This document shows, piece by piece, positions 22,688-49,837 of a DNA stretch of 64,000 nt. Within the stretch, counting starts at the first letter, position 1. The number at the start of each line of letters is the position of its first letter. The DNA comes from an uncultured Ignisphaera sp. (GTDB lineage Archaea > Thermoproteota > Thermoprotei_A > Sulfolobales > Ignisphaeraceae). A model generated the notes under the pieces. That model ran no database searches, was not told the DNA's origin, and worked only from the letters and a program-made list of their open reading frames with translations. The translations under genes and the position numbers were made by a program. The stretch is from NCBI GenBank assembly GCA_938074605.1, contig CALJEI010000002.1, positions 124,001 through 188,000 of the forward strand, given 5' to 3'.

Positions 22688-22746
22688 ATACTTCAGTGAG
22701 AGGAAACGGTCATCATAGCTTCAGAGCCTCTATTTCATCACTTGTT
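22688..22746 (-). ncRNA. C/D box sRNA
   Basis: Minus strand, in order: C box GTGATGA (22741-22735), 10-nt guide AATAGAGGCT, D' box CTGA (22724-22721), 5-nt spacer, C' box TGATGA (22715-22710), 13-nt guide CCGTTTCCTCTCA, D box CTGA (22696-22693). All four boxes match the consensus exactly and the spacing is standard. It guides 2'-O-methylation together with L7Ae, Nop5 and fibrillarin. I could not assign targets; the D guide's complement is UGAGAGGAAACGG. Confidence 0.85.
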
Positions 22747-48655: not shown

Positions 48656-48715
48656 ATTTGTCAGAGGGATTCGCTACTCATCATAATTCAGTAAGGATGC
48701 GTTTCTTCACTAAAA
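48656..48715 (-). ncRNA. C/D box sRNA
   Basis: Minus strand: C-like box GTGAAGA (48710-48704), 12-nt guide AACGCATCCTTA, D' box CTGA (48691-48688), 4-nt spacer, C' box TGATGA (48683-48678), 13-nt guide GTAGCGAATCCCT, D box CTGA (48664-48661). Only one base of box C deviates and spacing is standard. Targets (complements UAAGGAUGCGUU and AGGGAUUCGCUAC) were not assigned. Confidence 0.78.
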
Positions 48716-49774: not shown

Positions 49775-49837
49775 GGGCTGTGATGTAGTTTGAACCCGGG
49801 ACTGAAATCTTGATGAGCGGTGCAAACACTGAGCTAT
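49775..49837 (+). ncRNA. C/D box sRNA with two guides colinear antisense to a tRNA
   Basis: C-like box GTGATGT (49780-49786), guide ending TTGAACCCGGGA, D' box CTGA (49802-49805), 5-nt spacer, C' box TGATGA (49811-49816), 12-nt guide GCGGTGCAAACA, D box CTGA (49829-49832), then a T-rich tail. The first guide is complementary to a T-arm (UCCCGGGUUCAA) and would direct methylation at G51. The second is complementary to UGUUUGCACCGC, an anticodon loop with UGC, and would point to U34 of tRNA-Ala(UGC). The flanking D-box sequence CTGAGCTA is also antisense to UAGCUCAG of a D-arm. The rest of 49382-49923 holds only AT-rich sequence with box-A-like elements near 49718 and 49735. Confidence 0.72.

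Follow-up and report, generated by a model that had tools for sequence, protein, structure and literature searches.

We found that the DNA stretch analysed here (64,000 nt in full length, referred to as the window) harbours in its plus strand what is very probably an archaeal C/D box sRNA gene of the standard kind (we estimate the probability of this reading at about 0.87). Its D guide is predicted to address U34 of tRNA-Ala(UGC) and its D' guide G51 of a set of tRNAs which share a T-arm sequence, the Ala-U34 guide being old and the T-arm guide having been shaped within the genus. The gene anatomy, the complementarity to tRNA genes of the same genome, the conservation in relatives and the presence of fibrillarin and Nop5 genes can be read directly from the genomes and are described below.

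The sRNA corresponds to positions 49780-49832 of the window (plus strand); its parts are listed in Table 1. In a double-guide C/D architecture the boxes C (RUGAUGA), D' (CUGA), C' (UGAUGA) and D (CUGA) follow each other in this order, with guides of approximately 10-12 nt. Here all four boxes are present in order with one mismatch in total, located in box C, the spacers are 15 and 12 nt long, and the stretch AAUCU separates D' from C'. The deviating final U of box C recurs in the homologues of three other genomes of the genus (G008, G001 and G003; the genome of the window is G000). A scan allowing at most one box mismatch revealed three such structures in the window, while 40 first-order Markov-shuffled versions contained none, in line with the initial annotation, which had placed a C/D box sRNA at this site. 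No Rfam family was found over the sRNA at the gathering score. At lax thresholds, several archaeal C/D families were placed exactly over positions 49776-49835 with weak, sub-threshold scores; for sR3, sR14, sR33 and snoPyro_CD the best score was 18.2 bits, while the gathering cut-offs are 37-45. Our element is a C/D sRNA outside these named families. It is flanked by two minus-strand ORFs, one RNase H-like and the other a peptidase M20, and the closest public records for one of the flanking proteins are from Sulfolobales MAGs (67-69% identity). The genes for fibrillarin and Nop (Nop5) adjoin each other in the same genome (E-values of 3e-103 and 3e-75).

Table 1. Parts of the C/D box sRNA gene and its 3' flank (positions in the window)
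Feature	Position	Strand	Sequence and remarks
Box C	49780..49786	+	GUGAUGU; consensus RUGAUGA; final base U, not A
D' guide	49787..49801	+	AGUUUGAACCCGGGA; 13 nt complementary to tRNA T-arm 47-59; fifth base before D' pairs with G51
Box D'	49802..49805	+	CUGA
Box C'	49811..49816	+	UGAUGA
D guide	49817..49828	+	GCGGUGCAAACA; part GGUGCAAAC pairs with tRNA-Ala(UGC) 31-39; fifth base before D pairs with U34
Box D	49829..49832	+	CUGA
3' flank	49833..49837	+	GCUAU; likeness to a D-arm complement judged to be chance; unconserved in homologues

The tRNA-Ala(UGC) gene of the same genome (L012, G000:C2:404381-404454) reads GGGCCGGTAGCTCAGCCTGGAAGAGCGCTCGGTTTGCACCCGAGAGGTCCCGGGTTCAAATCCCGGCCGGTCCACCA. 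Its anticodon region GUUUGCACC is paired over 9 nt by the D guide; the base adjoining box D is unpaired, and according to the +5 rule it is the fifth base before the box that lies opposite U34. Among the tRNAs and rRNAs of this genome, tRNA-Ala(UGC) is the best match for the D guide and none pairs as well; the alanine tRNAs with the anticodons CGC and GGC differ from it at position 34. A match of 9 nt is reached by approximately 1% of shuffled guides (20,000 shuffles). The D' guide pairs with the T-arm sequence UCCCGGGUUCAAA of tRNA-Ala(UGC), and its 13-nt match was reached by none of 20,000 shuffled guides. If at least 9 bp with a stable RNA, the +5 nucleotide among them, are required (PMC4644070), both guides qualify, with 13 nt and 9 nt to tRNA genes of their own genome. 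As alternative targets of the two guides, rRNAs were considered and rejected, the best matches comprising only 7 and 6 nt.

The 13-nt T-arm stretch is common to ten tRNAs of this genome (three for Ala, three for Gly, two for Lys, and those for His and Pro(GGG)). Thus, the D' guide is not an alanine guide, and specificity for tRNA-Ala(UGC) is confined to the D guide. The initial annotation had asked for a comparison of the guides with the tRNA-Ala(UGC) gene of this genome, and in this comparison both guides fit. Its predicted Um34 and Gm51 agree with the gene, in which U34 and G51 occupy the +5 positions and are candidate methylation sites. Its view that a single tRNA is targeted twice holds insofar as tRNA-Ala(UGC) is matched by both guides, but the D' guide fits ten tRNAs equally well. 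Taken as a whole, what had been observed is partly confirmed and what had been concluded from it is partly supported.

According to our model, an RNA would be transcribed from positions 49780-49832 (plus strand) and would bind L7Ae, Nop5 and fibrillarin, resulting in RNP assembly. Through the D guide, this RNP would 2'-O-methylate tRNA-Ala(UGC) at its wobble base U34; through the D' guide, it would place the same modification on the T-stem G51 of tRNA-Ala and of about nine further tRNAs that share its T-arm.

Several known systems can be compared to this arrangement. In S. acidocaldarius, methylation of the wobble U34 and of the D-loop G18 of tRNA-Gln by the fibrillarin-C/D machinery was observed, according to the available text of PMC7668247. 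As in our case, U34 and a second site in the same tRNA are addressed by this machinery. However, the second site is G18 in the D-loop of tRNA-Gln and not G51 in the T-stem of tRNA-Ala, and a single sRNA shared by both sites of tRNA-Gln is not stated in the available part of that paper. The box C/D RNA in the intron of tRNA-Trp (sR50) is responsible for Cm34 and Um39 of tRNA-Trp. Like our sRNA, it is a C/D RNA whose two guides address the same tRNA, position 34 being one of the sites, but it resides inside the intron of its own target, whereas here the gene is free-standing and the second guide fits ten tRNAs. For Pyrobaculum, families of tRNA-targeting C/D sRNAs were described (Lui et al. 2018, summarised in PMC7994747), and they include wobble guides for position 34 of a single tRNA as well as guides for stretches common to many tRNAs. 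Both kinds are found here too. According to the same summary, usually just one of the two guides in these Pyrobaculum sRNAs has a target in a tRNA and its partner lacks a target, whereas here both fit a tRNA. Finally, a C/D sRNA of Pyrobaculum aerophilum guides Cm56 in tRNAs (tabulated in PMC6313347) and is similar in that a T-arm site common to many tRNAs is addressed, but its site is C56 instead of G51. Gm51 is mentioned neither in the available text of PMC7668247 nor in PMC6313347.

The pattern GGTGYAAACNCTGA of the D guide was detected in ten of the eleven genomes of the genus (nine besides that of the window). The full order of C, D', C' and D is kept in eight homologues besides our own (G008, G001, G003, G004, G005, G006, G007 and G010); in G009 the pattern is present and an sRNA is not clearly readable. 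The sRNA of G008 adjoins orthologues of the genes flanking it in the window (70-80% identity). The boxes and the D guide are kept in the relatives, the D' guide only partly. In G001 (L209:3364) the D guide reads GGUGUAAAC and can pair with G35 of tRNA-Ala(UGC) only by U-G; it is a guide drifting off perfect pairing. As a target of the G001 variant GGTGTAAAC, tRNA-Val(UAC) was considered and rejected, since the fit to its anticodon arm is poor and a single G-U is enough to accommodate tRNA-Ala(UGC).

In G004, G006, G007 and G010, neither a DNA search nor two pattern searches nor the listed matches of the tRNA model revealed a contiguous tRNA-Ala(UGC) gene, and therefore the target of the D guide is unconfirmed in these genomes. 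The gene may contain an intron, may have diverged or may fall into an assembly gap. In G005 the tRNA-Ala(UGC) gene adjoins rRNA genes; assemblies tend to break beside rRNA genes. The alanine tRNAs CGC and GGC were found in the four genomes (L235-L237, L244, L247-L249, L262-L275), and the U34 guide is still conserved there.

The D' guides of the genus split into two groups, and this variation bears on the possibility that only the D guide works, leading to Um34 in tRNA-Ala(UGC), while the D' guide, drifting or orphaned, matches the T-arm to no functional effect. In the second group (G004, G005, G006, G007 and G010) the guides are of the ATCCGGG or GTCCGGG type; with the tRNAs of G000 taken as substitutes for their own, they keep the pairing with C48-G52 and then need U-G at G53, giving 8-10 nt at best. 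Just the CCGGG core plus the U-G wobble is kept in G004, G006 and G010, so that Gm51 guiding is doubtful there. The combination of one tRNA guide and one targetless guide reported for Pyrobaculum (PMC7994747) also fits a silent D' guide. On the other side stands the first group with TGAACCCGGG-like guides, in which the match to the T-arm is perfect over 13 nt in G000, a length not attained by any shuffled guide, over 12 nt in G008 and over 11 nt in G001, and the pairing is kept with one G-U in G003. On balance, we consider a functionless D' guide unlikely.

The two-guide sRNA, as we prefer to read it, offers two precisely placed candidate methylation sites that can be tested, in an archaeal lineage that has received little study. 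The further-reaching proposal that one C/D RNP marks the wobble base of one tRNA and, with Gm51, the T-stem of a group of tRNAs, and that the recruitment of its second guide to tRNA took place in a single genus, is a tentative one. If it is true, an alanine tRNA would owe two marks to one RNA, possibly made sequentially, and Gm51 would be a site unmentioned in the archaeal tRNA papers searched.

Beyond the genus, the two guides behave differently. The pattern GGTGYAAACNCTGA is present in 35 of 147 genomes of the order, and a reversed control pattern gave one match in all; some of the matches outside the genus are in other sequence without C/D boxes. The T-arm guide pattern TTGAACCYGGGNCTGA was found in three of 144 genomes of the order, each time in the genus and in the same sRNA. 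In sRNAs of other genera and families, the Ala-U34 guide often takes the D' place and has no clear T-arm guide as its partner. For example, in G013, G014, G016, G022, G121, G047 and G063 (L082, L093-L095, L098-L100) it precedes a CUGA followed by a C'-like box, which looks like an exchange or circular permutation of guide halves between genera. The second guide differs in these seven genomes; that of G016 reads GTTTGACCGGG and may be a degraded T-arm guide. Since the Ala-U34 guide is thus combined with unrelated or doubtful partners outside the genus and a perfect T-arm guide exists only within it, the two guides have separate histories. We are dealing with a conserved wobble guide that acquired a second tRNA guide, a small and clean case of guide RNA evolution: one guide is kept across families, before D in some relatives and before D' in others, and its partner was rebuilt within the genus.

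These histories also bear on the suggestion of the initial annotation that the sRNA, being colinear antisense to one tRNA, originated when a tRNA gene was transcribed in antisense. On this view, the gene would be one for tRNA-Ala, and C' and D' would have been worked into the antisense copy. The order of the blocks is indeed as suggested: read backwards, the D-arm, anticodon and T-arm blocks UAGCUCAG, GUUUGCACC and UCCCGGGUUCAAA follow each other as in a tRNA. However, the spacing does not fit. The gap between the D-arm and anticodon blocks is 1 nt in the sRNA and 16 nt in the tRNA, and that between the anticodon and T-arm blocks is 17 nt, with C' and D' inside, as compared to 7 nt. The three matches lie on three different tRNA diagonals, and the colinear identity with tRNA spacing expected of an antisense-derived copy is absent. 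Moreover, the supposed D-arm match of the D-box flank could not be upheld. Half of the eight letters of UAGCUCAG belong to the D box, already the complement of UCAG, and the four beyond it, which match most tRNAs with this D-arm, are restricted to this species, the eight alignable homologues of the genus reading gcca (G008), gtat (G001), agat (G003), gctt (G004), caca (G005), tata (G006), gtta (G007) and aatt (G010). Relatives with the U34 guide at D' and next to unrelated or doubtful partners, and a clear T-arm guide confined to the genus, argue in the same direction. As the order of two guides has a chance of one half, the flank match is of four letters and the guide histories are separate, no antisense event would be needed, and we regard such an origin as highly improbable. 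Three short tRNA matches, two of them guides and one partly D box, can mimic an antisense tRNA by chance. A decayed tRNA gene in the minus strand, in favour of which the short tRNA-like blocks there could be quoted, is more improbable still and can practically be dismissed, since ARAGORN and the Rfam tRNA model find nothing there and the conserved feature is the plus-strand box structure and not a tRNA fold.

Two other C/D structures are present in the window. A second C/D box sRNA is located in the minus strand at positions 48661-48710, approximately 1 kb from the sRNA at 49780-49832, with the order GUGAAGA, guide AACGCAUCCUUA, CUGA, AUUA, UGAUGA, guide GUAGCGAAUCCCU and CUGA. Both of its guide cores are conserved in G008 (L215:11099), and its D' guide fits tRNA-Gln over 9 nt (AAGGAUGCG). 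The third structure, at positions 22693-22741 in the minus strand, has perfect C, D', C' and D boxes and the guides AAUAGAGGCU and CCGUUUCCUCUCA; its best rRNA match comprises just 8 nt.
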